Virus record (IMG/VR): IMGVR_UViG_3300028392_000216
Location: 1 to 30,544 of that record
DNA: 30,544 nt
Source of the DNA: a virus
Direction: 5' to 3' (one strand)
Within the stretch, counting starts at the first letter, position 1. Each line of letters begins with the position of its first letter. Below, piece after piece: positions 15,661 to 29,337 of this stretch. Position numbers and translations under genes: made by a program. The notes below the pieces were generated by a model. It was not told the DNA's origin. It did no database searches and saw nothing but the letters and a program-made list of their open reading frames with translations.

Positions 15661-15972
15661 TTAGGAAACAGTTATGTTATCTACGATGTTTAAGACTGCG
15701 GTGTCAGAAAAGAAAACTACCCCATTGTTCGCAAAGCGTATGTCCCAATAGGCTGACCCAAGGCTCCACGCAGCTGTGGCGTCATAAGAAACGCTAAAAG
15801 TCGTTGGGGAAGTTAAAGTGACTGCACAAGCGTATATTTTTCCGTGGGCGTCCCGAACGTCTGAAGTAATCGTGACTCCGTCTAAAGTTGGGGCACCACC
15901 AGAGTCTGGCGTATAGGTGACAGAAGCGTAAAAAGTTGACGCTCTCTTAAATGTTATCGTTTGCGTAGCCAT
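15661..15972 (-). CDS. Small beta-sandwich tail protein (BppU-N-terminus-like)
   Basis: A 103-residue protein with the pattern of a single immunoglobulin-like beta sandwich: M-A-T-Q-T-I-T-F-K-R-A-S-T-F at the start, then D-G-V-T-I-T-S-D-V-R-D, A-W-S-L-G-S-A-Y-W-D-I-R-F and a final T-A-V-L-N-I-V-D. This arrangement resembles the N-terminal attachment domain of baseplate upper proteins, which anchor fibres to the tail. It stops within a few nucleotides of the fibre start. It may be the fibre adaptor. Family assignment is by impression of the fold. Confidence 0.5.
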   Translation of the reverse strand: MATQTITFKRASTFYASVTYTPDSGGAPTLDGVTITSDVRDAHGKIYACAVTLTSPTTFSVSYDATAAWSLGSAYWDIRFANNGVVFFSDTAVLNIVDNITVS

Positions 15973-15989: not shown

Positions 15990-16010
15990 TTACTCTGGCG
16001 ACCCAGTCAA
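15990..16010 (-). promoter_or_regulatory. Bipartite leader motif, copy 5 (small tail protein)
   Basis: On the minus strand this reads TTGAC-TGGG-TCGCCAGAGTAA. It ends 17 nt before the ATG at 15972 and lies inside a 55-nt gap. The spacer matches copy 3 exactly. Confidence 0.6.
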
Positions 16011-16027
16011 GGGGTCTGGATTGCCCT

Positions 16028-17524
16028 CTAAAGCGTTTCTTTTGGCGACTGGTAGTCGCCTATGGCTATGTCCCCAGCGTAGGCTGGTATTTGCTGGGCT
16101 GGGGCTGGTGGGACGTAATAAGCGTGATTAAGGTCTTTCGTATATCCGCTTAGGCTGGCTGTGATTTGAGAGCAAAGGTCAAAGCCAGTGTCCCACTTGG
16201 CAATCTGAGTAGGGGAAGTAAGCAGTTTGTTTTTAAATGAGCCTAGAGGGTTTTGCCTTAAATGGATCACGCCATATTGGATTTGATAAATCTGGAAACG
16301 ATTAAGCCCAGCGTTCCATTTAATATACGCTATGTCTTGGCGGTAGCAATCGGTATGAACAAACCCAGTGCCTTCGTCCGTCATTTCTCCGACTGTCTTA
16401 ATCTGCGTTGTATTGTCCGCTTTAATTTCAATACCGCCCTCAAACTCTATAACTGGTGGCTGAGTTGGGGTATAGTCCGCGACTCGTATTCTAAAAGCGT
16501 CTTCTGGTGCAATTAAACCAGAGACTAGTGGATTAACTGTATAGCCGTATAAAGTTCCAACGTCTTTAGCCCTGACTACGTTCTCCATTAACCAGTTAAA
16601 GTTTCCGGGTGGCTGTTCGTTTGTGTTTCCAGCACCATAAGCCAGACCTCCCATATTATAATACCAAGCACCAAACTCTCCACCGTCCACGTATCTAGTG
16701 AAATTAACGTCATCAACAGCAGACGGAACTCCGTCTATTGTCATACCATCTGGCTGTCTTAAATTAGGGTTGGTGCTTTTCTCAGCAAAGATTGGGACAT
16801 TGTTTGCAAGCCAAGCCGTCATACTTGCTGGGTAGTTAGCGTCATTGTTATCAGTCACTAGCAACTCTTCCACGTGGAAAGTAACAAGGCTATTAAGTCC
16901 TGCTGTATCTAGGCTCGCTATTCTACCAATGGTATCTGCTACAACGACATTGTCCGTGGTGCTTGCACCGTCTAGGCGTATATAGGACTGAAGGAAACCG
17001 CCACCATTCCGCTGAGTGCGTATGTAAATGTTAGGGTCGTCGTACGCTTTAGAAATACCTAGCTGCGGTGCTTTGGCTTCCCACAAGTCGTTGCTGTCTT
17101 TCCAGTCTGGGGTCGTCTTATAGAGAAAAACAAAGTAATCGTTTTCCGGTGTCAGTTTTATAAATCCGTTTTTACTTATAAACTCAGAGGCTTCTTCTGT
17201 CCCTTCGGTCAGTGATCCATTAGGAAACAAGTTAAACTTGTTAATATAAAAGAACATATTCTGGCGGTTGAAACTTCCAATGCCACCAAGGCTGTCTAAG
17301 TCTATAATACCTTTTTCGTCTGAAGTATAGTAATCAAACTCTACCAAGCCTTTGCGGACGTGCAGGCGGTATTCATAAGACTCTCCCACTTTAGCCCCAG
17401 TGATCGAACACTCAAACTGACGCCCAATGTTTCGTGCAGAAGACTCGACACCAGCGTCAATGGTAAGCCCAGAGGCTTCACCTAGATTTGCAGACGTATA
17501 TCCAACTCCAGGGTTTAACTTCAT
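16028..17524 (-). CDS. Tail tip / baseplate protein, unknown family
   Basis: A 498-residue protein with Tyr, Asn, Gly and Pro enriched throughout, as in beta-structured tail proteins. Segments such as G-F-I-K-L-T-P-E-N-D-Y-F-V-F-L-Y-K-T and E-F-E-G-G-I-E-I-K-A-D-N-T-T look like beta-sandwich strands. No catalytic motif is visible. It lies between two other tip proteins upstream of the fibre. The leader carries TTAATTTTAC-TT before ATG, like those of portal and protease. It could be a hub or upper baseplate component. Confidence 0.4.
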   Translation of the reverse strand: MKLNPGVGYTSANLGEASGLTIDAGVESSARNIGRQFECSITGAKVGESYEYRLHVRKGLVEFDYYTSDEKGIIDLDSLGGIGSFNRQNMFFYINKFNLFPNGSLTEGTEEASEFISKNGFIKLTPENDYFVFLYKTTPDWKDSNDLWEAKAPQLGISKAYDDPNIYIRTQRNGGGFLQSYIRLDGASTTDNVVVADTIGRIASLDTAGLNSLVTFHVEELLVTDNNDANYPASMTAWLANNVPIFAEKSTNPNLRQPDGMTIDGVPSAVDDVNFTRYVDGGEFGAWYYNMGGLAYGAGNTNEQPPGNFNWLMENVVRAKDVGTLYGYTVNPLVSGLIAPEDAFRIRVADYTPTQPPVIEFEGGIEIKADNTTQIKTVGEMTDEGTGFVHTDCYRQDIAYIKWNAGLNRFQIYQIQYGVIHLRQNPLGSFKNKLLTSPTQIAKWDTGFDLCSQITASLSGYTKDLNHAYYVPPAPAQQIPAYAGDIAIGDYQSPKETL

Positions 17525-17532
17525 AAGTAAAA

Positions 17533-18432
17533 TTAAGCAGTTCCAGAACCAAGTCCACCAGAGCCACCAGAGCCACCAAATGTTGGTGTCGGATAAACAA
17601 CGTATGGGAAACCTTCACGTGAGTATCTTATCTCGTAGTTAATCTTATAAAGTGCGCCGTAATTCTCGCAGTTCATCTTAGAGACTAGCAATTGTGGGTT
17701 GCCATTTGCAGCTGTCCAATTTGTTCCGTATTCAAGTGGCACTAATTTAGGAAAGCCACCAAAGCCTAAGTCGTTCTGGTTTGTTGCAGACCCAACTTTC
17801 TCACGCATTAAAGTCACGTTACCAGAACTAGTCGTATAAACAATTCCAGTGAATACGGTTGTTGGTGCTAAGTAGGAAGTTTTTCCGTAATAGACAGGGT
17901 AGTTCTCATTAAAGAAACCTAGGAACTTTCCACCCTTACCGGGTTCTGAACAAGGTTGAAAAGTTGCCCCATTGTTTCCCTCCATCAAATTAGTTTTGTT
18001 GTCTATAATTATAGGGGAAGGGTGCCACGTAGCCTGCTTACCTGCAATTGGCTGGTCAGAACCAGAGCCTACAGTGATCGTGAAGAAATTAGGGTGCGTC
18101 TCAATCTTTTCTGTGCTTAGTCCATCGTCTCCGTGGCAGTTAGGTCGAGTGAACTCTCCAGTTTCAATCCCGACATAATCTCCGGTGACTGTCGCGACTC
18201 TTGCGTTGTTATAAGTTACAGACCACTTGTGCAGCTTAAGTCTAGTGTCCTTTTCAAATGCCTCACCACGTGCCAGCCTTGTTGAAGGCGGTGGCAACAT
18301 AATTGAAGTGTCGAACTTATAGGTGGCTCTGCACGTGAGCAGTCCGTAGCCGTCATTCTCAATTGTATAACCGGGTTGAAGGACGCCTGACTCTAGGTCG
18401 TTTCCGTATCTGATTAAAGTGTCGCTAGGCAT
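17533..18432 (-). CDS. Tail tip structural protein, unknown family
   Basis: A 299-residue protein directly after the tape measure, where distal tail or tip proteins are encoded. It is beta-rich with many Thr, Gly, Asn and Tyr residues and has a paired cysteine layout (near C-R-A-T, N-C-H-G, Q-P-C-S and N-C-E-N). The C-terminus is Gly-Ser rich, with repeated G-G-S-G after Y-P-T-P-T-F, like a flexible tether. A GTCGCGAC palindrome at 18191 encodes V-A-T. I do not recognise the family. A role in the tail tip or baseplate is inferred from order. Confidence 0.45.
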   Translation of the reverse strand: MPSDTLIRYGNDLESGVLQPGYTIENDGYGLLTCRATYKFDTSIMLPPPSTRLARGEAFEKDTRLKLHKWSVTYNNARVATVTGDYVGIETGEFTRPNCHGDDGLSTEKIETHPNFFTITVGSGSDQPIAGKQATWHPSPIIIDNKTNLMEGNNGATFQPCSEPGKGGKFLGFFNENYPVYYGKTSYLAPTTVFTGIVYTTSSGNVTLMREKVGSATNQNDLGFGGFPKLVPLEYGTNWTAANGNPQLLVSKMNCENYGALYKINYEIRYSREGFPYVVYPTPTFGGSGGSGGLGSGTA

Positions 18433-18435
18433 AAA

Positions 18436-19707
18436 TTACTTTGAGGGGTTTGGGATAGTTGGTGTCGGTGGCACTTTTATATTCACCATAGACTTAGTAA
18501 AGTCTGGGGCGTAATTAGGACTGCGTGAGTTGTCTAGGATTGTCTTAATTTCTTTAAGCACGTCAAGTTGGTCAGTCATTAAAAGCAGCTGTGAGTTGTT
18601 CCCGAAACCGATCACGCCAGAAGACGGCGCACTTTCGCCCATTCCCATACCGCCACCTGCACCTTGCTCTGAGAACTTTCCGACTTTTGGGGCTGGTGCT
18701 TCTTTTTCCATAGCACTTAGAATTGCACTGAAAACTTCATCTCTTATGTTTTGTTTAACTGAACTTTCGTCACCAGTTGCATACGGACCGTGCTGGAACG
18801 CTTGTTGTGAGTTTTTGTAAAAGAACGCACCAAGTTCCGTTGGTATTTCTCTCTTTTCATATTCTTTTAACAAGTTTTCAATAAAAACTTTTTTATTTTC
18901 TTCCGGTGTTCGTTTAAATTGCTCATCTCCCATCTTTAAATACGCTTCACGTTCTGCGTTAATTAGATCACGTTCACGTTCGTGAACAGCAACTGCAACA
19001 ACTGCTTCTCTTTCCATTATAGCTTTTTTACGTTCTATGTTTCTGATAACTTTATCTAAGGCTTCAGCTGCTTCTAATTCTGCGTCAGTTAGTTTCTTGG
19101 TTTCTTCCGCTTGTTTCTTAATAGCCTTACCAGATTGCTCAAACATTGGTACTAAATTAAGACCTGCTCTTTTACCAAGTATTTCTGAAATCAGTGCCAG
19201 CACGTCGCCTTCTTGTGAAGCGTCTTGGAAAGCGTCTGCTAGTCTATAAACAACGTCACTGGCTTTAAGAGTAGAATAATTTAAATCTTCTGTTGTATTA
19301 AATAACGTTCGCAAAGTCTTTCTGTGCGACTCAGAGCCAGCCTGTGCTTTTGCAATATAGACGTTGGCAAAGTTTAAAGCCTTACCCAAGTCCTGCATAG
19401 AAATACCAGACTCACGTGCAACAGCTGCTAATCCTTGAAACTCTTGTGAGTCTAATCCCGACTTCTTAATTGCGTGGTTTATTTCTCTGATCACCGTCAA
19501 TTGTTCACGCATACCGTGAACGAAGTCTTTAATTTGTCCTAGGATTGCGTCAGCTGCAAAGAAGCCAGCAATCGGGGCTACGATAGATTTACCGAAGTCT
19601 TTAAACCAGTCCTTCATAGCAGTGCCAGCGGTCTTAGCAGCTTGTTCTGCACCCTTAGGAACTTCTGAGAAGTCGCCACCAAACTTTACTTTTACGTCAT
19701 CTGCCAT
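18436..19707 (-). CDS. Tape measure protein (short)
   Basis: A 423-residue protein with the features of a small tape measure: an N-terminal A-A-K-T-A-G-T-A-M-K segment, a hydrophobic stretch I-V-A-P-I-A-G-F-F-A-A-D-A-I-L at about 41-55, then long helices rich in Ala, Glu and Lys (residues 60-310), including EEAEALDK-type repeats and an R-E-R-D-L-I-N-A-E-R-E-A-Y coiled coil. The C-terminus is Gly-Met- and Pro-rich. The protein should set tail length. By the usual rule of roughly 1.5 angstrom per residue it predicts a tail of about 60 nm. A minor tail protein is the alternative. Confidence 0.7.
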   Translation of the reverse strand: MADDVKVKFGGDFSEVPKGAEQAAKTAGTAMKDWFKDFGKSIVAPIAGFFAADAILGQIKDFVHGMREQLTVIREINHAIKKSGLDSQEFQGLAAVARESGISMQDLGKALNFANVYIAKAQAGSESHRKTLRTLFNTTEDLNYSTLKASDVVYRLADAFQDASQEGDVLALISEILGKRAGLNLVPMFEQSGKAIKKQAEETKKLTDAELEAAEALDKVIRNIERKKAIMEREAVVAVAVHERERDLINAEREAYLKMGDEQFKRTPEENKKVFIENLLKEYEKREIPTELGAFFYKNSQQAFQHGPYATGDESSVKQNIRDEVFSAILSAMEKEAPAPKVGKFSEQGAGGGMGMGESAPSSGVIGFGNNSQLLLMTDQLDVLKEIKTILDNSRSPNYAPDFTKSMVNIKVPPTPTIPNPSK

Positions 19708-19709
19708 TG

Positions 19710-20297
19710 TTAGTTGTTTCTTTTATAGGGTTTTTGTTTTTCGGTTTCCAGTTCTGACAATTCTTTCTGCATAACTTCCCACTCGTGATCACTGACCAAT
19801 TTAATGTCGCACCCAGAGCGTTGCAGGAACGCCATATGAAGCCACACAGCCTCTGACTCTGGCATTGTCCAAGCCTCTGTCAAACTCAGCCCATTTGCCA
19901 CCAAATTGGCTACCACGATTAACTTCCAGTCGATTGGGTTGTCCTTGGCTGGCTTGTCGCTTTCCCAGAACCTTGGGTATAGGGACTGGGCTTGGAAATA
20001 AACAAGCAGCTTGTAGGCTTCTTCTCTCAGTTTCTTTTTACTGACCTGCATATTCTTGAGAGTGACTAACTCCCAGAAAGACAAAGGCTCACGAATGTCT
20101 GCTAAGTTATGAGTTGAGAGTATTCGCGCACCTGCGATCACGTCCTCTGCACCGATAGGCTGAGAGAAGTCTAAAAGTGGCGAGTCAATCGACTCCAGAG
20201 CAACCCGGTGTCGTAAAGAGAAAGGTAGCAACTTTCTGCCACAGACCTTTATAGTCGGTGGCAATATGGTTGCCGATTGTGTCCACCGTGAAGCCAC
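19710..20297 (-). CDS. Tail assembly chaperone-position protein
   Basis: A 195-residue protein directly upstream of the tape measure gene, the usual place of tail assembly chaperones. It starts with GTG. The sequence is helical, with S-F-W-E-L-V-T-L-K-N and a tryptophan-rich middle, and ends in a highly charged tail (E-L-E-T-E-K-Q-K-P-Y-K-R-N-N). Unlike lambda G/GT, it is one open frame and I see no slippery heptamer. No motif identifies the family. The role is inferred from location, and an alternative tail protein cannot be excluded. Confidence 0.4.
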   Translation of the reverse strand: MASRWTQSATILPPTIKVCGRKLLPFSLRHRVALESIDSPLLDFSQPIGAEDVIAGARILSTHNLADIREPLSFWELVTLKNMQVSKKKLREEAYKLLVYFQAQSLYPRFWESDKPAKDNPIDWKLIVVANLVANGLSLTEAWTMPESEAVWLHMAFLQRSGCDIKLVSDHEWEVMQKELSELETEKQKPYKRNN

Positions 20298-20306
20298 TAG
20301 TGGGAA

Positions 20307-20322
20307 AACCCCAAGTGGGGTT
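20307..20322 (-). terminator. Short hairpin at the stop of the tail-tube candidate
   Basis: On the minus strand AACCCC-ACTT-GGGGTT forms a 6-bp stem with a 4-nt loop, followed by two more T and then CCC. It overlaps the stop codon and ends 9 nt before the next GTG start, which itself sits inside the palindrome CCACTAGTGG. It may attenuate transcription to reduce expression downstream of an abundant protein. Confidence 0.4.
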
Positions 20323-20662
20323 AGGCGATGTTTTGGTATTTAACCAGTTTAAGCGAAACCTTACGGAAGCCGTTGTTCGTGCCGTTATCAGTCACGTCTT
20401 TAATGATGTAGGTCGTTCCGTCGTAAGCAAATGTTTCACCAATCACTGGGTAAGTGGACTTAACTTTTAAAACTCCGCTGACGCCTGTTTCAATTCGAGT
20501 GTCGTCTAAACGGTCAGTGATCACAACGCCAAACTCGTCAGTGACTTCTACGTCCAGAGCCTTCTTTTTAGAAATGTCGTCCGATTGGATAGTCGCGAAA
20601 GCGAGCGTTCCGTTCAGTCCGTATGCGTGGGTGGTTCCGTAAGTAATTGAAGTGTCTGACAT
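20321..20662 (-). CDS. Tail-tube or tail-associated protein candidate
   Basis: A 113-residue, beta-rich protein with many Thr, Gly and Asp residues (G-V-L-K-V-K-S-T-Y, then G-E-T-F-A-Y-D-G-T-T-Y-I-I-K-D-V). It occupies the major tail protein slot, between the terminator-like gene and the chaperone-position gene before the tape measure. It is shorter than usual tube proteins, so a second neck protein is possible. Its C-terminal strands resemble those of the protein at 22068-22406. Leader motif copy 4 lies just upstream and a hairpin overlaps its stop codon. Confidence 0.4.
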   Translation of the reverse strand: MSDTSITYGTTHAYGLNGTLAFATIQSDDISKKKALDVEVTDEFGVVITDRLDDTRIETGVSGVLKVKSTYPVIGETFAYDGTTYIIKDVTDNGTNNGFRKVSLKLVKYQNIA

Positions 20663-20674
20663 AGGGTTGGTTCT

Positions 20675-20695
20675 TTACTCTGGCGACTGTGTCAA
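20675..20695 (-). promoter_or_regulatory. Bipartite leader motif, copy 4 (tail-tube candidate)
   Basis: On the minus strand this reads TTGAC-ACAG-TCGCCAGAGTAA. Its first bases overlap the TGA stop of the upstream gene, and it ends 12 nt before the next ATG. Confidence 0.6.
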
Positions 20696-21132
20696 ACAGC
20701 CTCCGGTGGATATACGCAGACCAGCGTATAGGTCAAAGCGTTGCCATATCTGCGGTCTGCCACGCCTTCATCGTCTGCGTTAATCCAAGTTGCGTATAAT
20801 TGACCCTGCGTCCACGCCGTCTTAAGTCCGTCATCGTGTTGCATTATACCCTGCACAGCCTCAACTCTTGCTCTGTGTTCTTCCAAAGTGTTGTCGTCCG
20901 CAGACGAGTAGATGTATATCTTAAACGTGATCTCAAAGTTTCCGCTAGGCTTAGCCCCGAAGTCTCTGTGGGCTTGGGCAGACTCAGCGTGTAAAATTAT
21001 AATAGGCACAGACCGAATGTCAGCGGTTTGTCCTTTAACAATTTGAACACCGGGGAGTGCAGCTGAATTAGTCGTGAACCAGTCTAGGACAGACTGCTCT
21101 GCAATTGTGCGTATGCCGTATAGGGTAGTCAT
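20692..21132 (-). CDS. Tail terminator-like protein (gpU position)
   Basis: A 146-residue protein with alternating helix and strand: an N-terminal helix, I-I-I-L-H-A-E-S strand, a F-E-I-T-F-K-I-Y-I-Y-S-S strand, a charged helix (EEHRARVEAVQGIMQ) and a final strand G-N-A-L-T-Y-T-L-V-C-V-Y-P-P. This plan and size match phage tail terminator proteins, which cap the tail tube and join it to the head. It ends with TGA inside leader motif copy 4. Assignment is from predicted topology and gene order. Confidence 0.5.
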   Translation of the reverse strand: MTTLYGIRTIAEQSVLDWFTTNSAALPGVQIVKGQTADIRSVPIIILHAESAQAHRDFGAKPSGNFEITFKIYIYSSADDNTLEEHRARVEAVQGIMQHDDGLKTAWTQGQLYATWINADDEGVADRRYGNALTYTLVCVYPPEAV

Positions 21133-21135
21133 AAA

Positions 21136-22068
21136 TTAGTCGTCTGTGAAAAGGTGCGGAGTGCCTAAGAGTTTTCCTTTAGCAATTGCCTTGGCGAGTA
21201 CGCCTTTCTGTGAACGCACGTAAGCTGCCATTTGGTTTCTCATTTTATTTGCTCTGAGATTTAACACCCACTTATACCTAGGGTCAACCACCATACCGAT
21301 TTTGTTTCCAACGGTGACGGAAGGTGCGATTGAATTGCTTAGGCTGTTTTCACCAATGGCTTGGGTTTGTGCAGAAGCCTTTTTAACCCACGCTGGAAAG
21401 GACACTTTCTTGTCTCCAATTTGCTGGGCAGAAAAGAAGTAGCCAGACTTCTGGTAGCCAATGTTCTTAACTTTACTGGCTATGTAATTGTTAATCAACT
21501 TCTGGTCTTGAACTATAAAGCACAATTTAGACTCACTCCACTTTCCTCTAGTTGTCGCGACACTTCTTTTTAAGCCTCCGTAGCCTTTGTATCTAAGCCC
21601 AGAGTGGACGCTCTCCATTTGCTGTTGAGTCGTAAGTAATTTAGAACCGCCTCTTTGTCTGGCGAAATTGTTTTCAAACACTTGCCAAGTAAAGTGCCTT
21701 GGGTTTCTAGAAAAGTAATCTCCATCTCCACTAGAGCCTTTGTGGAACGTGATCCATTCTTTGTAAACTGACTCAGAACCCAGGAAGGCGACCTGACTAG
21801 GGTTGGCTTTGTCCAATGGTTTAAAGATTGAGTTAATTTGAACACGTATGATTTCTTCCTGCACTTTCTTTGCCTCACCACTTAATCCAGTTCCGGGTGA
21901 TTTCCCAGCAAAGGGTGGAGAGTATTTGCACATATCCTTGCAGAACAGTGCAGCTTGATTTTGAATAACCACACTTAATTCTTTGCCTAACAATCGGGAG
22001 TAGTCTTGCAGGTGCTTAGAAAGCAGAGAGGTATCAACCTCAACGCCTTTTAGTGCTGTATAGCCCAT
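21136..22068 (-). CDS. Minor tail / tail-completion protein candidate (gpZ-like position)
   Basis: A 310-residue basic protein. The N-terminal part (residues 1-45) is helical, then K-Y-S-P-P-F-A-G-K-S-P-G at about 48-59 resembles the P-P-x-T-G-x-L turn found in HK97 gp10 and lambda gpZ-type tail completion proteins. Many Lys and Arg residues are spread along the length, for example in SGLRYKGYGGLKRSVATTRG. Neck-gene order (joining protein, this gene, then a terminator-like gene) supports the role. Internal Met codons near a GTCGCGAC palindrome at 21554 do not suggest a second start. The call is positional with weak sequence support. Confidence 0.5.
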   Translation of the reverse strand: MGYTALKGVEVDTSLLSKHLQDYSRLLGKELSVVIQNQAALFCKDMCKYSPPFAGKSPGTGLSGEAKKVQEEIIRVQINSIFKPLDKANPSQVAFLGSESVYKEWITFHKGSSGDGDYFSRNPRHFTWQVFENNFARQRGGSKLLTTQQQMESVHSGLRYKGYGGLKRSVATTRGKWSESKLCFIVQDQKLINNYIASKVKNIGYQKSGYFFSAQQIGDKKVSFPAWVKKASAQTQAIGENSLSNSIAPSVTVGNKIGMVVDPRYKWVLNLRANKMRNQMAAYVRSQKGVLAKAIAKGKLLGTPHLFTDD

Positions 22069-22406
22069 TACGCTGGCTCACCCTTGGACTGGACTCGCAC
22101 GATCACCCAAGCGGAAGGCGGTCTGTCGTTAATTGCCACAATACGATAGTCCGCTCCATTAAAGTGAATTAAATTACCATACTTCACAGAGTCTGGGTGC
22201 GCACTTAATTGTGACTTGAGAAACTTGACGTCATAAGAAGTGGAAGACATAAACCCACCAGTCTCTAAGTCTTGAGAAACCATAGGTGGCGACATTAGGA
22301 CGTTAAAACTCACAGCTGCACCAGAGCCTCTGCGGACAGTCACAGACTTGGGTATCTCTGCCAGTATTTCTGAGGCGTCTGACGCCCACTCGTCTTGTAT
22401 TGCCAT
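22068..22406 (-). CDS. Neck / head-tail joining protein candidate
   Basis: A 112-residue protein of mixed charge with an N-terminal acidic helix and a beta-rich C-terminal half (G-N-L-I-H-F-N-G-A-D-Y-R-I-V then A-W-V-I-V-R-V-Q-S-K-G). The short beta-barrel look with a late G-x-x-Y-x-I strand is common in gpFII-like joining proteins. It is the first complete gene after the capsid terminator and overlaps the next start (TAATG-type). I do not recognise a specific family. The role is inferred from position. Confidence 0.45.
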   Translation of the reverse strand: MAIQDEWASDASEILAEIPKSVTVRRGSGAAVSFNVLMSPPMVSQDLETGGFMSSTSYDVKFLKSQLSAHPDSVKYGNLIHFNGADYRIVAINDRPPSAWVIVRVQSKGEPA

Positions 22407-22427
22407 TTACTCTGGCGACCCAGTCAA
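22407..22427 (-). promoter_or_regulatory. Bipartite leader motif, copy 3 (neck gene)
   Basis: On the minus strand this reads TTGAC-TGGG-TCGCCAGAGTAA, directly abutting the ATG at 22406. The spacer is identical to that of copy 5. It lies in a 42-nt gap after the truncated PP-loop gene. Confidence 0.6.
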
Positions 22428-22448
22428 TAGAAGCCTAGGGGTAGTCTA

Positions 22449-22721
22449 TCAAAACGCCTCTGAGAGCCTCCTAGGTGGGCTTAATAGGCGGTTGCCTAGG
22501 GCTTTACAGACCGCACATTCCCTCTGCTTTTCTAACCAATCTAACCACTTATAGACACTTTCTGGTTCTGACTGAGTGTCCGCAAAGATTGCAAAGTCAG
22601 GCATTGGCGTCACTTCTCCTTTAGCTGCCATTAGAGCGAGGGTTGAGGACTGAACCCCAGCACCTAAGGACAAAACATTCCACTTTGTTTTTGGTGGCTC
22701 ATCGAAGTAAGTTTTAACCAT
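22449..22721 (-). pseudogene. Truncated PP-loop (PAPS-reductase-like) fragment
   Basis: The 90-residue ORF begins like phage proteins of the PAPS reductase / adenine nucleotide alpha-hydrolase family: N-V-L-S-L-G-A-G-V-Q-S-S-T-L-A-L at 15-30 is the ATP-pyrophosphatase loop, and F-A-I-F-A-D-T-Q-S-E-P at 43-53 is the next conserved strand. Intact members are usually several times longer, but this one ends after C-A-V-C-K-A-L and about 14 further residues. Three CCTAGG hexamers cluster in and just after its 3' end (22434, 22470, 22495), possibly marking a deletion junction. It lies between the capsid terminator and the neck genes, where head-decoration or morons are common. It could be an expressed short protein, but catalysis looks impossible. 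Confidence 0.65.
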
Positions 22722-22772
22722 AAGAAAAGATTACGTCCTTTGTTTTAAACTTTCAACTGTTTAATAAAACAA

Positions 22773-22804
22773 AAGACCCCACTAAGTTTCCCTAGTGAGG
22801 TCTT
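22773..22804 (-). terminator. Rho-independent terminator after the major capsid gene
   Basis: A 12-bp stem (AAGACCTCACTA with TAGTGGGGTCTT, one G-U pair) closes an 8-nt loop. On the minus strand it is followed by TTGTTTTATT. It starts about 20 nt past the capsid stop codon and is the best terminator in the window. It separates head genes from neck and tail genes. Confidence 0.85.
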
Positions 22805-22826
22805 GCTTCCTTTACGTTAATCTAGA

Positions 22827-23744
22827 TTAGGAAGTAAAAGCAATACGCTGAGCACCAGCAGGATTACCAACTGCGTGACCAGTGATCCAAGAAGCCGACA
22901 AGTTCGACTTACCTTTTGTCCAATCGTACCACATACGCAGAGCAAACGTGAAGTTCGAGTCTGGGTCGGTTACGTTGATTTGTTCGCCACCACCAGTGGT
23001 AGGTGCAGCTACTGTGCGAGTCACCACAACGTGACCTTCACGTGCTGAAGCAATACCATTAAGACCTTGAGTGTAAGCAGTGCCAGAAGTTGGGAAACCG
23101 TTATACTCGTAGATGTCTAAACCGTGCAAGCGACCAACTTTTCCGTCACGGATAACTGAGGTGTCTCCGATTGAGAGGTATTGAGCGACTGAAGGGTCTT
23201 GTAAGAGTTGACCAAAAGCGTCTGGGCTTAATAGTAAAGCACGACCATCAAAAGGAAGGTTGGCTTTGGTGAGTGACGTTGCAACGTTAGCGATAGCAAC
23301 ACGATTGAAATCAGCCTTAGCACCGGAGTAAGCGGCGGTGGCGTAGTTAGCAGTGATGGTGCTGTTGACGACATCGTCAAACAGACTCTTAACAACTGCG
23401 TTGCTCATAGGTGCGATAAACACGCGACGTAACATTTCCAAAGAAATGGTGGCTACTTCGGTATCGGTGAAACTGGTCATCACGTAACGGTGGTCACCAA
23501 GTGTGATCGCAACGTCAGTTGAAGTAGCGTCAGCTGCAACGAAACCGTCAGCTGCTACGTAGTCGCTGGCAGTGAACTTATTTGCAAAACGAGTGTGGAC
23601 GACTTGACCTTTTTCTGCGACATAAGAACCGAAGTCGGTTACTGCAATCTTAGAAAGCGGTGCAAGGATTGGGGTCAAGGTGCGAAGCGTTTCAGCTGCA
23701 ACGAACTGTGGGGCTAAGCCTTGATTTAATACGGAGTTAGACAT
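22827..23744 (-). CDS. Major capsid protein
   Basis: A 305-residue protein rich in Ala, Val and Thr with few Cys or Lys, as in HK97-fold coat proteins. The N-terminal third is followed by features seen in coat proteins: G-D-H-R-Y-V-M-T-S-F-T-D-T-E, a long helix around SLEMLRRVFIAPMSNAVVKS (the spine-helix position), a L-L-L-S-P-D-A-F-G-Q-L-L block, and the conserved G-L-D-I-Y-E-Y-N-G-F-P core strand. It follows protease and scaffold genes and is immediately followed by a strong terminator, which would give the high separate expression expected of the coat gene. The fold is inferred, not modelled. Confidence 0.88.
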   Translation of the reverse strand: MSNSVLNQGLAPQFVAAETLRTLTPILAPLSKIAVTDFGSYVAEKGQVVHTRFANKFTASDYVAADGFVAADATSTDVAITLGDHRYVMTSFTDTEVATISLEMLRRVFIAPMSNAVVKSLFDDVVNSTITANYATAAYSGAKADFNRVAIANVATSLTKANLPFDGRALLLSPDAFGQLLQDPSVAQYLSIGDTSVIRDGKVGRLHGLDIYEYNGFPTSGTAYTQGLNGIASAREGHVVVTRTVAAPTTGGGEQINVTDPDSNFTFALRMWYDWTKGKSNLSASWITGHAVGNPAGAQRIAFTS

Positions 23745-23773
23745 ATTGTGTTTTTAGGGTATGAGTAAAAAAG

Positions 23774-24211
23774 TTATTTGATACCAAGGTGCGCGATAAT
23801 CGCTACACGATTGGCGTTATAAAACGCTTGTTTCTTTGCAGGGTCTTTTTCTGCAACGTAAGACTCCCAGATTTCTGAGTTAGATTTAGGAGTGATCTCG
23901 TTAGGGCTAATCTCGACAGGTGAAGCACCAAGTGAGGCGACAATAGAAGCGGACTTTTTACCTACGCTTTCAATTTGTGCGACAGCGGACTTTTTAAGTT
24001 TTTCGCTTTCTTCGTATTTAGCAGTGATGTCGGCAACCGCAGCTGTGAGTTCTGCAACCTTGCTGGCTTCAACTTCTAAAGAGGCTAGTTTGGCAGTAAG
24101 GTCTGCATTGACAGCCTTGGCTTGCTCTAGGTCTGCTGAAAGGGTTTGAGCCTCTTCGGACTTGCCTGTGAAAGCGTCCTTAAGAGCCTTAAGTGATTGT
24201 TCAAGCGTCAT
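23774..24211 (-). CDS. Coiled-coil protein, scaffold candidate
   Basis: A 145-residue protein between the head protease and the major capsid protein. Residues 5-90 are a long coiled coil rich in Ala, Glu, Lys and Leu with heptad spacing (KALKDAFTGKSEEAQTLSAD and onward). A short Pro-containing linker follows, then a compact C-terminal segment ending A-I-I-A-H-L-G-I-K. Size, composition and place fit a capsid scaffolding protein that guides prohead assembly and is then removed by the protease. A capsid decoration or delta-domain role cannot be excluded. Confidence 0.5.
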   Translation of the reverse strand: MTLEQSLKALKDAFTGKSEEAQTLSADLEQAKAVNADLTAKLASLEVEASKVAELTAAVADITAKYEESEKLKKSAVAQIESVGKKSASIVASLGASPVEISPNEITPKSNSEIWESYVAEKDPAKKQAFYNANRVAIIAHLGIK

Positions 24212-24213
24212 AC

Positions 24214-24234
24214 TTAATCTGGCGAACGTGTCAA
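24214..24234 (-). promoter_or_regulatory. Bipartite leader motif, copy 2 (scaffold-like gene)
   Basis: On the minus strand this reads TTGAC-ACGT-TCGCCAGATTAA, with one change from consensus (GATTAA for GAGTAA). It ends 2 nt before the ATG of the coiled-coil gene and begins just after the protease stop codon. A GTCGCGAC palindrome lies 4 nt upstream of it. Confidence 0.55.
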
Positions 24235-24246
24235 ATAAGTCGCGAC

Positions 24247-24675
24247 TTATCGGTGGCGGTTAGTTCCACTGCGGTCGTGCTTTTCGTCAGTGTCGATTGG
24301 CTTCTTCCCGGTGTCGTTTTCTTCTTCCGCCTGTTTCTTAGCCTCAGCAGACTCTTCTTTGTCTGGGTCGCAATCTGGGTCTTCTGGGTCATAGTCTGGG
24401 TCATCTGGATCACACTCGTCAGCCTTGGCGTCTGGTTTCTTTTCGTGCGGACGACCACATTCTGGACATTTGTCCTCATCTTCAGAACCAGCGTCATCTT
24501 CTGCCTTCTTTTCTTCTTCTTCTTCCATCTTTGGAACGACTTTGCGACTAGAGTCATCTTCTGGCTGGGCTGGGTAGCCTTTCTCGTCCTCATCGTCTTT
24601 ACCGACTGCTGGTTTCTCGTCAGTTAATTTAATACCAGACAAAGCACGTGCTGAGGCGGTTAATTTCTTAGACAT
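24247..24675 (-). CDS. Possible nested Nu3-like product from an internal start
   Basis: Met301 of the protease is preceded on the minus strand by CCCAGAGAAAGAA-ATG. This is purine-rich and resembles the CCAGAGTAA-ATG context used by other genes here. Initiation would give a 142-residue acidic protein from the C-terminal tail, the same arrangement as lambda C/Nu3. This is an inference by analogy. A separate coiled-coil gene just downstream (23774-24211) is a competing scaffold candidate. Confidence 0.3.
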   Translation of the reverse strand: MSKKLTASARALSGIKLTDEKPAVGKDDEDEKGYPAQPEDDSSRKVVPKMEEEEEKKAEDDAGSEDEDKCPECGRPHEKKPDAKADECDPDDPDYDPEDPDCDPDKEESAEAKKQAEEENDTGKKPIDTDEKHDRSGTNRHR

Positions 24676-25575
24676 TTCTTTCTCTGGGTGCGCACTTTCT
24701 TCTGCTTCTTCTTCACGTGCGTCGTTTTCTTCGTCCGCTTCCATTTGTTCTGCAACTCCAGGGTTTAAAGTTTCCATAAGTTCGTCAAAGCCATTGACGA
24801 GTCCAGTGACTAACCCAGCCACTGCACCTTTTTTACCAGAGAAGCACTGACCCTCTAAGGCGGAGTCTTCAACAAACTCACGAACAGACTTCACAGCTGC
24901 TTTAAAGTCGTTGTGAATTTCTACGACTTCTTCCTGCAACATCTTCTTCTGGTTTTCATCAAGTGAAGTACCTTCGATACCAGCACCCTTATATAAACCA
25001 GATTTAATTACTTCCACGCTATAGCCTTCGTTGCTGTAAGCCTTAGAAGCGTCAAGGTATGCAATATATACGCCCACGCTACCAACAGTGCTGGACGGAG
25101 TCGCGTAAAACTCACTGGCTTGGCTACCAATCCAGTAAGCAGCTGAACAGGCTTCGCTTTCAGTGAACGCAATTGTTTTCTTAGAGTAGTTTTTAACTTT
25201 TTCTGCGAGTTCAGGAACTCCGACTGAGACGCCACCCGGTGAGTCGATGGAAAGAATGATCGTGCTGATCGTGCTGTCACGTTCGCAATCTTCTAACATT
25301 TCTTCCACTGAATTAAGGTCACAGCAACCGCACATTCTTTCTAATGTCGTTAAGTTTTTACCAATAACGCCTTTGACCGGAACGACTGCAAAGGGTGGGA
25401 ACTTTTGAAGAGTAGGAACGCCACCAAAGATTGACGCCAACATTTCTTCCATATCGGAAGCCTTAGCGGTTAAAGGTATCTCTACGTTATCAACTCTAGA
25501 AAGGTATTCTGAGGCTTGATCACGTTGAATGAGAAGTGGGCGGTTAGACTTAAAGTCTTTCTTTAGATGTCGCAT
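24247..25575 (-). CDS. S49-family head maturation protease with a long acidic tail
   Basis: A 442-residue protein. Residues 60-265 form an SppA/ClpP-like serine protease of the lambda gpC type, which processes capsid proteins during head maturation. Visible elements are S-I-D-S-P-G-G (109-115, oxyanion region), the likely nucleophile Ser144 in EACSAAYWIG, TVGSVGVYI, and the likely general base Lys196 in SGLYKGAG. Residues 278-442 are highly acidic and low in complexity. They include E5 runs, CPECG (370-374) and a Asp-Pro repeat with two more cysteines (388, 402). In lambda the C-terminal part of gpC is also made alone as the Nu3 scaffold, and Met301 here could start such a product. The leader is AATTTTAC-like. 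Confidence 0.88.
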   Translation of the reverse strand: MRHLKKDFKSNRPLLIQRDQASEYLSRVDNVEIPLTAKASDMEEMLASIFGGVPTLQKFPPFAVVPVKGVIGKNLTTLERMCGCCDLNSVEEMLEDCERDSTISTIILSIDSPGGVSVGVPELAEKVKNYSKKTIAFTESEACSAAYWIGSQASEFYATPSSTVGSVGVYIAYLDASKAYSNEGYSVEVIKSGLYKGAGIEGTSLDENQKKMLQEEVVEIHNDFKAAVKSVREFVEDSALEGQCFSGKKGAVAGLVTGLVNGFDELMETLNPGVAEQMEADEENDAREEEAEESAHPEKEMSKKLTASARALSGIKLTDEKPAVGKDDEDEKGYPAQPEDDSSRKVVPKMEEEEEKKAEDDAGSEDEDKCPECGRPHEKKPDAKADECDPDDPDYDPEDPDCDPDKEESAEAKKQAEEENDTGKKPIDTDEKHDRSGTNRHR

Positions 25576-25586
25576 TGTATGTAAAA

Positions 25587-27128
25587 TTAAAGGGGGTCAT
25601 TACCTTCGTTCAAAGGTATCTGGCTATCGTCAATTGGCGCACTTTCATCTGGAGTTCCGGTTATGTCAGCAGTCGGAGTATTCTCTGGCTTATACATCGT
25701 CCAGAACGGAACGTTTAATTGTTCAGCAATGTCCATCTTATGACGAATGTCAGCTGCACGACGAAGGTCGTGATCACGTGAGTCGTTTCCGTTCTCTGCG
25801 TGGTATTCTGAGAAGGACTTAAGCCCTAACTGAATAGCCTTAAAGGTTGAGGCTTCTTCTTTGCCAGCGTCCACTGTAACTTTCTTAGGCGTCACCCAAT
25901 TGACTCTGTGCCAATTGTCATTTGCTGGTAAATCACCGTTGGCAACGGCATTGGCAATAACGTAACCCCACGTTGGTGTTAGAAGTCGCGACATAAGCAC
26001 GTGCTGACGTGCGTCAAATACACGCCCAGCCTTGGCTACGACTAAACGCATAGCAGACCCAGCCTTGTTTGGCTCAACAACAAACTCGTAAGGAAGGACA
26101 CCCATTGTCGAGTCACGTTGCAAGTGTTCAATAAAGCCAGTGAAGGTGCTGTTAGGTCTTGCGGACTCGATGGATTTAATTTCTTCACCCGGTGCCATCA
26201 CCAAAGTTTTGCCACCAATAAAACTACCCACTTGGTCTGGGTTGTCATAGACCTGTTTCGGGTAGTCTTGAGGACGCATACCAAACGCTTCAAAGTCAGA
26301 CTGAGAACCGTCAAATTGTGGGTTCTCTCTGGTTATGAACATAGCCTTGTCGCCGTTTGCTTTAACTGCGACTTTTTCCAGTGAAAGTATTTCTAGTATG
26401 TCGATTAAGTTGTTAATCGAGTGTTGCATTGGCGAGTATGCACGTGATCCACTCGCTTGCTCTGGGTGGTGAATATGAAGAATAGACTGAGCAGGAACTA
26501 GGCGACCTGTTCCGTCTGAACGGATAACGTTATAGCCAACGACTGCACCATATTTGTCGAAAAGAATACCGTCAAACATTCCAGCAGCTGTGCCAGAAGC
26601 GTCTTGTGAAACCCCAACCCGGTGCGACTCAATTAACTGCAACAAAACTTGTCCGTCTTTGCCGTAGGTTTTCAACGCAAACATTTCTCCGTCCCTATCT
26701 ATTAGTTTGCACACAATCTGTTGTACTTCCCAGAAGTTATAGCGTCCAGTAATTTCGCAGGGTCTATTAGCCCAGTCCTTAAAGTAGTTTTCCGCTTGAA
26801 CGTCCCAGACCGCATTACCAGAAGACGCTTGTGGTTTGATACCATCACCAACGCTATAAAGACACATATCGTTTATCATTTGGCGCACCAATCCAGCGTT
26901 GACGTAGAGCCAACGCATCTTTCGTGTCAGTTCTTGTCTGTCGAACGATGACATCGTCCGCTTTGCGTCATTAGGGAAAGGGGTGTTAATCCACGAACGC
27001 TTTACGGAGTACTTTGCACCTTCGAACTGAGAAAAGATACCAGCACCACCACCAGAGATTGCCTTGGCTTTCAAGTCGTTCTTTTTAGATACGGAACGAG
27101 TGGACTTTGGTTTCTTTGGTGATCGCAT
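25587..27128 (-). CDS. Portal protein, lambda family
   Basis: A 513-residue protein that should form the twelve-subunit ring at the head vertex through which DNA enters and leaves. The basic N-terminus and the following block around residues 40-130, with RQELTRKMRWLYVNAGLVRQ and later DMCLYSVGDGI, are typical of lambda gpB-type portals. The stretch GKTLVMAPGEEIKSI followed by P-N-S-T-F is the conserved central region. Length matches the family. It sits between gpW and the head protease, the canonical place. The start is preceded by AATTTTAC-T rather than a Shine-Dalgarno sequence, a leader also seen at 25575 and 17524. Confidence 0.92.
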   Translation of the reverse strand: MRSPKKPKSTRSVSKKNDLKAKAISGGGAGIFSQFEGAKYSVKRSWINTPFPNDAKRTMSSFDRQELTRKMRWLYVNAGLVRQMINDMCLYSVGDGIKPQASSGNAVWDVQAENYFKDWANRPCEITGRYNFWEVQQIVCKLIDRDGEMFALKTYGKDGQVLLQLIESHRVGVSQDASGTAAGMFDGILFDKYGAVVGYNVIRSDGTGRLVPAQSILHIHHPEQASGSRAYSPMQHSINNLIDILEILSLEKVAVKANGDKAMFITRENPQFDGSQSDFEAFGMRPQDYPKQVYDNPDQVGSFIGGKTLVMAPGEEIKSIESARPNSTFTGFIEHLQRDSTMGVLPYEFVVEPNKAGSAMRLVVAKAGRVFDARQHVLMSRLLTPTWGYVIANAVANGDLPANDNWHRVNWVTPKKVTVDAGKEEASTFKAIQLGLKSFSEYHAENGNDSRDHDLRRAADIRHKMDIAEQLNVPFWTMYKPENTPTADITGTPDESAPIDDSQIPLNEGNDPL

Positions 27129-27135
27129 AGTAAAA

Positions 27136-27402
27136 TTACAGACCTCTGAAGTTCCAGAGTCCGTTATAGACTCTTACTCGGTCAATAGAACCATACTGGT
27201 TAGGGTCTTTAATTTGCAAAGCGTACCGGCACTCGATTAGCGTCTGCTGTATGTCCATAGGGAACGTTTTGGAAACAGAAGTACCGCTATCACTATAACT
27301 CATCATTGTTTTACCTTCGGTGAGAAGTGAAGCTGCACGGTCTGCGATTGCCTCAATCCTTGCTTGAGATAAGATAAGAAAACACCCAGTTGCACGTGCC
27401 AT
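27136..27402 (-). CDS. gpW-like head-to-tail connector protein
   Basis: An 88-residue protein between terminase and portal, exactly where lambda places gpW, the small joining protein that stabilises filled heads and lets tails attach. The middle segment has the same plan as gpW: an amphipathic helix, a short hairpin with G-T-S-V-S-K, then a helix D-I-Q-Q-T-L-I-E-C-R-Y-A-L. It is slightly longer than lambda gpW because of an extra C-terminal stretch ending W-N-F-R-G-L. The start is the ATG immediately after leader motif copy 1. Assignment rests on size, position and weak sequence resemblance. Confidence 0.6.
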   Translation of the reverse strand: MARATGCFLILSQARIEAIADRAASLLTEGKTMMSYSDSGTSVSKTFPMDIQQTLIECRYALQIKDPNQYGSIDRVRVYNGLWNFRGL

Positions 27403-27423
27403 TTACTCTGGCGAGTAAGTCAA
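27403..27423 (-). promoter_or_regulatory. Bipartite leader motif, copy 1 (gpW-like gene)
   Basis: Read on the minus strand this is TTGAC-TTAC-TCGCCAGAGTAA, directly abutting the ATG of the gpW-like gene. It is one of five full copies of TTGAC-N4-TCGCCAGAGTAA in the window. No Shine-Dalgarno sequence is present, so the motif itself may set translation initiation. Confidence 0.6.
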
Positions 27424-27428
27424 AAGTA

Positions 27429-27451
27429 TCCACCCCTGTTAAAAGGGTGGA
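27429..27451 (-). terminator. Hairpin between terL and the gpW-like gene
   Basis: There is a perfect 7-bp stem (TCCACCC and GGGTGGA) around a 9-nt loop. On the minus strand it is followed by TACTTTTGAC, so the U-tract is weak. It lies in the 130-nt gap after terL, one of the longest gaps in the late region. It could be a leaky terminator, an RNA-processing site or an mRNA stabiliser. Confidence 0.35.
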
Positions 27452-27532: not shown

Positions 27533-28882
27533 TCAAACTTGAGGCTCTGGGGCTTCGTCTGGGTCTTGGGCTTCGCTAGGCTTGCGTGGGGCTATTAGTC
27601 GCCACCCTAGGGCTGGCAACATCTGCATAACTTCGCAGTCCCAGAAGTGGTTGTCGCGACTCGCTATCTGTTCCCAGATTGCACGACCCGATTGAGAAAC
27701 AGTCCTACGCTCAGACTGCATTTGTTGGACGTATTCGTCTGGGACATTGTCAGCCCTTGTGTGCTTTCCTTGCCTAATAAGCAGAGCCAGTTGGTCTTTA
27801 AATCTAAGGTTAGAAAAGTAAGTCCGCTTGGTTCTCTTTGTGCCTATATTCTCCACGACAGGCGGTGAGTAAGGTCTGTGCTCAGACTTCATTCCAACTG
27901 GGGTGCGCACTTTCCACGTGAACTCATTTCTCTGATCGCCTCTGGTAGCGTGCCAGCCATTAACCGCACAAGCGTTCAAGACTTCGTCCTGCTGATCACC
28001 GCTATCCACAAATACATTGGCTGGGTGAACTTCAAACTTCTTATGAATGTCAATTACTTCACCCCACGCAAAACAATAGCCACATTGAACAAGTCGCGAC
28101 AAACCCTCTCCGTTCCAAGACCTAACAACCCAGTAGAAGCCACGTCTCTGAACGTCCACAGTCATAAACCGCATACGCACAAAGTCTGGTGCTAGTTTCA
28201 TTTCTGGAGTTAATAAAGAACCCGGAACTGGACGACCTTTAACAAACCCACCTTCTTCTTCCCAGTTAGTTTCTAAAAGATAGCCACCCGCAGCTGTGGC
28301 TAAGTTAATCTCGTCCGCTTCTTCTTTAAACTCTTGAGCCAGACGTTTTTGTATAAAGATTTTAATCGGCTCACGATCACCGTAATCTTTTAAATAAGAC
28401 TTAGCCTTAATTCTTTCCACCGCCAACTCACCCCACGACATCGTGGCAAGTGCGTTCCATTGTAAGCCAATTGCACCAGTGGGTTTGTTTGAAACTTTGG
28501 AAACAAATGAGCCACGCTTGTTCGCTTCTAAACGTATTCCTGGGTTATCTGGCAACAGGGTTTTGCACTGCTCACATTCGTAAGTTGTTTGCTTCTGAAC
28601 TTTTAATAAGTCCCAGTCTCCGTTCACTTTTGCGTCCTGCGGAAACTTAACTTGTTCCCAAACCCAAGGTTGCAGGTAATCACATTGAGGACACCGGAAA
28701 CACCAGTCTTTAATGTCAGTGGTTGAGTGCAGCTGATGGAACTCTTGACCCTCTGACCCGCCTTGACTCATTATAATACGCTTACCCAAATAGCCGAAAG
28801 CGGTAACACGTGCGGACGCTTCCGCTAAATGTCCCTGTGGGGCTTGCCACGCTTCATCTATAATTAAATACCGCAAAGACAA
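27533..28882 (-). CDS. terL: Terminase large subunit, Walker B and nuclease part (frame broken)
   Basis: This is the second part of the GpA-family terminase. Its open frame extends upstream beyond the TTG at 28882, so that TTG is probably not a real start. Walker B is LIIDE at residues 6-10, then comes the family stretch QGHLAEASARVTAFGYLGKR. Cysteine clusters CFRCPQC (61-67) and YECEQC, a little further on, look like zinc-binding sites before the nuclease. MTVDVQRRG and NVFVDSGDQ look like the acidic motifs of the RNase H-like nuclease that cuts concatemers. The domains present here complement the N-terminal half exactly, so the protein is complete apart from one base. Confidence 0.88.
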   Translation of the reverse strand: MSLRYLIIDEAWQAPQGHLAEASARVTAFGYLGKRIIMSQGGSEGQEFHQLHSTTDIKDWCFRCPQCDYLQPWVWEQVKFPQDAKVNGDWDLLKVQKQTTYECEQCKTLLPDNPGIRLEANKRGSFVSKVSNKPTGAIGLQWNALATMSWGELAVERIKAKSYLKDYGDREPIKIFIQKRLAQEFKEEADEINLATAAGGYLLETNWEEEGGFVKGRPVPGSLLTPEMKLAPDFVRMRFMTVDVQRRGFYWVVRSWNGEGLSRLVQCGYCFAWGEVIDIHKKFEVHPANVFVDSGDQQDEVLNACAVNGWHATRGDQRNEFTWKVRTPVGMKSEHRPYSPPVVENIGTKRTKRTYFSNLRFKDQLALLIRQGKHTRADNVPDEYVQQMQSERRTVSQSGRAIWEQIASRDNHFWDCEVMQMLPALGWRLIAPRKPSEAQDPDEAPEPQV

Positions 28883-29337
28883 ACGCTGTAAGTTTGCTTC
28901 ATTAAATATACCACGACAATAAAGTCTATAGTCGTTGACCTTTCCATATCGTCGTTGCGTAAGCGTTTTTTAACTGGTGGGCAATTGTTCCAGACTGGAC
29001 GCAGGTATCGCAAAGCAAAGTCTTTGGCTTCTAAGTCTGTCTTTTGTAAAAACATCATTGGGGCTGGGTGGTTTGCGATCACGTAGCAAGTGAACAAACG
29101 AGCAAACAAAGTCTTCCCCGATTGAATAGAAGCCAAAGTGGTTAATAGTTTTGTTTCTGGGTCAGCTGCAATTCGCAACGCTTCCGCAACCCAAGGAGTT
29201 CGGTCTGCTTTAAAAGAACCGGGCATTGGTGAGTCTGGGATAGCCAGCACGTTGTTTTCGCACCATTCGACAATGTCGCCAGAGTCTGTTGGCTTTAAGA
29301 CTTCTTTTCCAATTAGTAGAAGGTCGTCTTTTGTCAT
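28864..29337 (-). CDS. terL: Terminase large subunit, N-terminal ATPase part (frame broken)
   Basis: This is the first part of a GpA-family large terminase, the motor ATPase that pumps DNA into the prohead. Walker A is S-I-Q-S-G-K-T at residues 70-76, followed by the QKTDLEAKDFALRYLRP segment typical of the family. The frame goes wrong after P-V-K-K, at a run of six A on the minus strand (28966-28971), and ends about 30 residues later. Adding one A there joins it to the downstream half and gives one frame of about 601 codons across 27533-29337, a normal GpA length. In the -1 frame the sequence V-N-D-Y-R-L-Y-C-R-G leads straight into the Walker B region. This could be a homopolymer sequencing error, a real mutation, or slippage at the A6 run. 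Confidence 0.85.
   Translation of the reverse strand: MTKDDLLLIGKEVLKPTDSGDIVEWCENNVLAIPDSPMPGSFKADRTPWVAEALRIAADPETKLLTTLASIQSGKTLFARLFTCYVIANHPAPMMFLQKTDLEAKDFALRYLRPVWNNCPPVKKRLRNDDMERSTTIDFIVVVYLMKQTYSVCLCGI

Follow-up and report, generated by a model that had tools for sequence, protein, structure and literature searches.

The window, that is, the whole stretch of DNA analyzed here, is a phage contig of 30,544 bases (30.5 kb; IMG/VR record IMGVR_UViG_3300028392_000216) with nearly all of its genes on the minus strand. On this strand, an element of the form TTGAC-N4-TCGCCAGAGTAA is present in five copies, each of them just upstream of a gene that heads a set of structural genes. Four of the copies are exact, and the one at 24214-24234 carries a single mismatch (GATTAA). 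As claimed by the original prediction, which was made from the sequence of the window alone, all five were found at the positions given below, ending 0, 2, 0, 12, and 17 nt before the ATG (copies 1 to 5, respectively), and their alignment showed that the N4 varies while the two halves are nearly invariant. The copies and the genes that follow them are as follows.

27403-27423, minus strand: motif copy 1, TTGACTTACTCGCCAGAGTAA, 5' of the gpW-like gene; predicted start at A 27404, 2-nt leader
27136-27402, minus strand: gpW-like gene for head-tail joining, heading unit 1, which also holds the portal and the S49 protease; position and start conserved in relatives
24214-24234, minus strand: motif copy 2, TTGACACGTTCGCCAGATTAA, 5' of the scaffold-like gene; predicted start at A 24215, 4-nt leader
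23774-24211, minus strand: scaffold/decoration-like gene (by position), heading unit 2, which includes the major capsid gene
22407-22427, minus strand: motif copy 3, TTGACTGGGTCGCCAGAGTAA, 5' of the neck gene; predicted start at A 22408, 2-nt leader
22068-22406, minus strand: neck gene (by position), first gene of unit 3
20675-20695, minus strand: motif copy 4, TTGACACAGTCGCCAGAGTAA, 5' of the tail-tube-like gene; predicted start at A 20676, 14-nt leader
20321-20662, minus strand: tail-tube-like gene (by position), first gene of unit 4
15990-16010, minus strand: motif copy 5, TTGACTGGGTCGCCAGAGTAA, 5' of the small tail gene; predicted start at A 15991, 19-nt leader
15661-15972, minus strand: small tail gene (phrog_1084, without assigned function there), heading unit 5, which includes the tail fibre

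The gpW-like gene had no match in Pfam or PHROG, and its name is taken from the original prediction. When up to three mismatches were allowed, the window contained six matches to the motif, against 0.10 expected, and none of 100 shuffled sequences gave six. The sixth match (29267-29287, plus strand, three mismatches) lies inside a gene and on the opposite strand. A coding origin of the repeat, as Leu-Thr-x-Ser-Pro-Glu-stop, was rejected because the upstream genes finish at or before the motif and the frames vary; copy 4 overlaps the stop codon of the upstream open reading frame (ORF) at 20692-21132.

Lineage-specific versions of the element in related phages

Related loci were collected by a portal search (18 loci) and by a capsid-alignment search (80 loci); the counts at gene junctions given below are of distinct upstream sequences, from about 60 relatives. 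The exact motif of the window was confined to very close relatives. Exact matches in L009, L010, L011, L013, L014, and L015 were single copies, not comparably placed at gene starts, and were discarded as chance or unrelated occurrences. The search at gene junctions of related phages, which had been proposed as a check, revealed at the same five junctions TTGAC-N4 followed by a lineage-specific second half, each lineage having its own version: TTGACTnnnTCGCATA in L018 to L020, TTGACAACATCGCATwaTAT in L021 to L023, and TTGACTCCCGCGTAG, TTGACTGCCGCCTAG, TTGACTCCCGCGTTG, TTGACTCCCGCGGAGG, TTGACTCCCGCGCTA, and TTGACnnnnGGCTAAA in further lineages. The core was present upstream of 35 of 42 gpW-like, 56 of 57 scaffold, 48 of 57 neck, 44 of 46 tube, and 28 of 28 small tail genes, and several of the gpW and neck misses were visibly degenerate forms, such as TTTAC. 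Among about 500 upstream sequences of eleven other structural and packaging genes (small terminase, portal, protease, capsid, and seven more), it was found only once. The complete relatives (31 to 36 kb) carry five strong copies each, every one located among the structural genes and pointing the same way as transcription. A sixth half copy had been described at the junction between the Mom stop and the small-terminase start; the sequence exists (29937-29945), but TTGAC is missing from it and the motif was absent from all 34 distinct small-terminase upstreams in relatives, and we consider it a coincidence.

The copies of one genome resemble each other far more than they resemble those of other genomes. 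Over the ten positions after TTGAC, the mean number of mismatches was 0.85 within and 3.66 between genomes (3.56 with permuted labels; standard deviation, 0.11), and in G007 four copies are identical across 20 bases. Since the copies are uniform within a genome and divergent between genomes, these sequences imply that a single shared trans-acting factor, co-evolving with its sites, would read all five.

The alignment of 183 sites from relatives on TTGAC revealed the anatomy of the element. TTGAC occupies positions -19 to -15 and is followed by a T at -14 and, from -10 to -5, by another block that reads GCGTAG in most sites; the great majority of sites have a pyrimidine at -1 and an A at +1. 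Upstream of -21 the sites carry little information, and thus there is no -35 element. Transcription starts usually prefer a pyrimidine at -1 and a purine at +1. The gap between TTGAC and the ATG was never shorter than 14 nt in relatives; it was exactly 14 nt in most gpW, neck, and small tail gene cases, where the +1 A is the A of the ATG, while in the scaffold and tube cases the ATG usually lies 10 to 18 nt past the predicted start. At these leadered sites, the trinucleotide YAA was found at -1 to +2 in 77 of 88 cases, against a background of 7.1% elsewhere in the leaders. The TAA that ends each copy in the window corresponds to this YAA, and its first A is the predicted start. Base -20 differs between the two arrangements: it is T where the site abuts the ATG (87 of 89) and C where there is a leader (86 of 94). 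This split may result in part from overlap with the upstream gene, which ends in GCT-TGA, and there are possibly two subclasses of the element, either differing in strength or set by the upstream stop codon.

Proposed transcription from the element and competing explanations

This conserved, oriented, and lineage-specific element, with its five copies and its fixed pyrimidine-A, is probably the core of a late promoter that would give leaderless or short-leader mRNAs. The reading is favored because the +1 A stays fixed whether or not it is part of the ATG, as expected of a transcription start, and because a terminator usually precedes the neck copy. Each copy would start one structural transcription unit: gpW-portal-protease, scaffold-capsid, the neck gene with two minor genes, tube-tape measure, and small tail gene-fibre. 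Transcription would most likely begin at the A located 14 nt downstream of TTGAC, with predicted leaders of 0 to 20 nt and fully leaderless mRNAs in most relatives. The start of RNA at the motif, the lateness of these genes, and the redirection of the host RNA polymerase (RNAP) by a phage-encoded factor are what we infer from these patterns.

The proximity of the motif to the ATG had been taken as an argument against any promoter. It does rule out a sigma70 promoter whose -10 element would follow TTGAC by 17 nt, and we rejected this type (-35 TTGACA and -10 TATAAT separated by 16 to 18 bp, start about 7 nt past the -10) since TTGAC lies at -19 and the 183 sites show no conserved -10 at 17 bp; sigma70-like sites scoring at least 11 of 12 were rare, and none corresponded to any of the five copies of the window. 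The argument does not extend to promoters in general, given the A fixed independently of the ATG and the terminator usually found 5' of the neck copy. A sigma54 promoter (GG at -24, GC at -12) was also discarded because the TTGAC and (G)CG blocks are too close and the first block has no GG.

An intrinsic terminator was found within 130 nt before the neck gene in 50 of 62 distinct upstream sequences (81%), compared with 0 to 12% at the other junctions. In L031, L091, L105, and L106, the T tract of the terminator runs into the motif, leaving about 20 nt before the ATG. If these terminators work, transcription of the neck gene must begin within this stretch. The gpW upstreams have stable hairpins before the motif (mean z of about -2), few of which pass the strict terminator rule. 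The window contains the following structures.

22766-22802, minus strand: hairpin with T tract resembling an intrinsic terminator, 3' of the major capsid gene and 5' of the neck unit
27429-27451, minus strand: hairpin TCCACCC...GGGGTGGA then TACTTTTG, directly 5' of motif copy 1 (-13.2 kcal/mol in L012, an identical relative)

A near-identical post-capsid terminator hairpin was called in the close relatives L007 and L008. Between the capsid terminator and the neck motif of the window lies a fragment resembling PAPS reductase (22449-22721, minus strand), which matches only positions 163 to 214 of the 460 of phrog_424; the corresponding gap is short in L018 to L020. Insertion and decay between a terminator and a promoter would keep the operons intact. 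Another hairpin, CCCC-ACTT-GGGG followed by TTTT (20309-20320, minus strand), separates the tail-tube gene from the next gene, and a hairpin at this place is kept in all relatives while its sequence changes.

Gene content was searched in 14 near-complete genomes. None of them had a match to the T7-like RNAP (PF00940), although the T7 positive control was detected, and no RNAP beta subunit or sigma region 2 was recognized. A promoter for a T7-like or a multisubunit phage RNAP was rejected on these grounds, and the host polymerase would be used instead. The best candidate for a factor that reads the motif is the following protein.

64-687, minus strand: candidate late transcription factor of 207 amino acids, with a sigma-region-4-like helix-turn-helix

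Its homologs are found in almost all near-complete motif-bearing relatives; the only one lacking it is G001, whose contig may be incomplete. In circularly permuted contigs, the homolog is encoded upstream of the terminase genes, where late regulators are often located. The AlphaFold model (pLDDT of 78) gave, for residues 78 to 176, structural matches of which nearly all of the 50 best were sigma regions 3 and 4, with Z scores of 5.2 to 6.0 that are weak and below the reliable range, and the Pfam match to Sigma70_r4 was below threshold. In raw comparisons that ignore kinship, the recognition helix reads SHKCRT or SHRCRT in two phages with TCGC-type motifs and SLRCRK in most phages of the GCG types, a contrast that L149 and L150, in which the motif was not seen, may break. 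We hypothesize that this protein is the motif-reading factor. Tentatively, such a sigma-region-4-like protein, devoid of region 2, could bind TTGAC at -19 and recruit the host RNAP to start at or beside the ATG; the same tentative scheme includes leaderless late mRNAs and a second half-site that co-evolves with the protein in each lineage. The relative G003 carries sigma70-like promoters, TTGACA-N16-CATAAT and TTGACA-N18-TATAAA, before two other genes; since canonical promoters exist elsewhere in this genome, the late motif would be a separate promoter class.

Several observations weigh against a late promoter read by this factor. The scaffold, tube, and small tail gene junctions have no clear terminator, so that upstream transcription could cover them. 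The region from -12 to -7 is GC-rich in most lineages, which is unfavorable for melting by a sigma70-type polymerase, and we know of no sigma factor that fits TTGAC at -19. A reason for a second promoter class beside the sigma70-like ones has to be assumed. When distance matrices were compared, the helix-turn-helix protein was not singled out as the partner of the motif (partial rho of 0.38, rank 6), and scores at least equal to its own were reached by the portal, a minor tail gene, and DnaB. Finally, the pyrimidine-A-A could be the end of an RNA motif instead.

This last point leads to the strongest of the alternatives, an unlikely one in our view, in which the transcribed motif is an RNA-level signal controlling the first gene of each unit, either bound or cut by a phage protein or an RNase or recruiting ribosomes without a Shine-Dalgarno sequence. 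The motif lies in the ribosome-binding window of three genes, and its uniformity within genomes suits any shared factor, including one that binds RNA. These phages also hardly use Shine-Dalgarno sequences: words of this type were found in 6 to 21% of gene upstreams, against 5 to 11% in shuffled sequences, and were near chance in most genomes, which makes leaderless or Shine-Dalgarno-free initiation plausible. The motif itself was rejected as a Shine-Dalgarno site, which would pair with the 3' end of the 16S rRNA through an AGGAG core 5 to 10 nt before the ATG, since most lineages, like the window, have no GGAGG-like core in it; in one lineage a CGGAGG is present, with a distance to the ATG of either 3 nt or about 16 nt. 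A non-Shine-Dalgarno translation signal, as had been suggested earlier, fits poorly, because the motif is unchanged whether its gap to the ATG is 0 to 2 nt or 10 to 20 nt. The terminator just 5' of the neck copy, with a T tract running into TTGAC in several relatives, also argues against an RNA signal, no Rfam family matched at the motif, and no conserved stem was visible in it by eye.

A DNA operator or roadblock, where a phage repressor on asymmetric sites would block elongation or initiation of the structural units, is improbable. The element resembles the stoperators of cluster A mycobacteriophages, as both are asymmetric, have a single orientation relative to transcription, lie in short intergenic places, and diverge between related phages (PMC9283540, PMC6550527), but the five sites are restricted to the starts of structural units, whereas stoperators exceed 20 per genome, and such an operator leaves the fixed pyrimidine-A and the upstream terminator unexplained. 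Lysogeny itself is unlikely, since no phage integrase was found in the 14 near-complete genomes and no relative of the capsid protein in GTDB genomes.

More improbable still is a promoter read by an alternative sigma factor of the host, without any phage factor. The commonest second block, GCGTAG at -10 to -5 with a start 5 to 6 nt downstream, recalls the -10 elements of extracytoplasmic function (ECF) sigma factors, such as CGTA or CGTC. There is, however, no -35 element at the distance typical of ECF promoters, the CGTA half becomes CCTA, CGTT, CGGA, CGCT, GGCTA, CGCAT, or CGCCA in other lineages, and several versions coexist among related phages. The least credible explanation, a linker favoring the exchange of gene modules by homologous recombination, accounts for the position of the motif at module borders in all relatives but not for 3' halves that differ between lineages and offer little homology, when a passive linker needs shared sequence, nor for pairwise gene distances that correlate across the motif junctions (mean rho of 0.58) as they do elsewhere (0.61), which gives no sign of the recombination breakpoints expected at motif sites.

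The phage, its probable host, and other features of the window

The head module of the phage resembles that of Verrucomicrobia phages, and its portal is of the lambda family. Among named phages, the capsid protein had its best coverage with Verrucomicrobia phage P8625, and the portal matches include P8625 and Akkermansia phage Moulinsart. On the basis of these capsid and portal matches, the host is probably, but not certainly, a verrucomicrobium; the search of GTDB genomes for relatives of the capsid protein found none and assigned no host.

The large terminase gene (27533-29337, minus strand) is divided between an ORF at 28864-29337 and another, overlapping it, at 27533-28882. Complete relatives appear to hold a single long ORF, and the split in the window is either a sequencing frameshift or a real break. 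Next to the small terminase gene is a Mom-like DNA-modification gene (29937-30530, minus strand; PF25680, E value of 6e-38). Its 3' part (29959-30031) matched a tRNA in Rfam (39.6 bits; E value of 3e-5), although ARAGORN found no tRNA. The palindrome GTCGCGAC, present for example at about 24237-24252, ranks with the words that recur most often in the window, and on the minus strand GTCGCGACAA occurs six times and TTGTCGCGAC and GTCGCGACTT five times each.

Parallels with known systems and implications

We found no earlier description of the motif, or of any regulatory signal for this phage group, in the open-licence literature. Functionally, the element would come closest to a group of late promoters, and its nearest documented parallels are the late promoter of phage AR9 and the leaderless -10 promoters of Deinococcus-Thermus. 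In the jumbo phage AR9, late promoters have the form AACA-N6-T-A/G, where the last base is the start (PMC5312081). Both are short two-part elements that end at the (here predicted) start site, one per late unit, and both diverge strongly in sequence between related phages (in that case between the late promoters of AR9 and phiKZ). Those of AR9 are assigned to a phage multisubunit RNAP and have leaders of 26 to 491 nt (PMC5312081), while the phages studied here have no recognizable polymerase and predicted leaders of 0 to 20 nt. In Deinococcus-Thermus, the promoter element also abuts the ATG and gives leaderless mRNAs (PMC12340547), but it is a classical -10, in contrast to the GC-rich region of most lineages here and their invariant TTGAC at -19.

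Two repeats of mycobacteriophages are also similar in part. The SAS and ESAS repeats of cluster K lie directly 5' of several start codons, and the ESAS halves differ by subcluster (PMC3203893); the SAS has an AGGAG Shine-Dalgarno core, whereas our motif lacks such a core in the window and in most relatives and is restricted to the five starts of structural units. The stoperators of cluster A share asymmetry, single orientation, short intergenic location, and lineage specificity with the element (PMC9283540, PMC6550527). They differ from it in having more than 20 sites, temperate phages, and a known repressor, against five sites and no integrase found.

The isolate P8625 has related head genes but lacks this motif. 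Read by eye, several of its virion genes follow TTGACA-N17-TATTGG-like elements, with a predicted start at the ATG of some of them, as here. Upstream of positions 5448, 10772, 15594, and 17541 of this phage (L109), TTGACA-N8/9-GTATCC-N3-TATTGG-ATAC is found shortly before the ATG. These repeated elements look like near-leaderless promoters with an extra dyad: the TTGACA is at the normal 17 bp from a -10-like TATTGG and there is a GTATCC...GGATAC dyad, while in the phages studied here TTGAC lies about 16 bp nearer to the start.

This group of lake phages is common among the viral contigs searched. If the promoter reading is correct, the late operon map of each genome could be read from sequence alone, and transcription starts would be predicted to the base in dozens of uncultured phages. 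The geometry of such promoters, with an invariant TTGAC at -19 and no -10, would fall outside current models of bacterial initiation, and the lineage-specific halves provide a ready set for identifying the protein that reads them.

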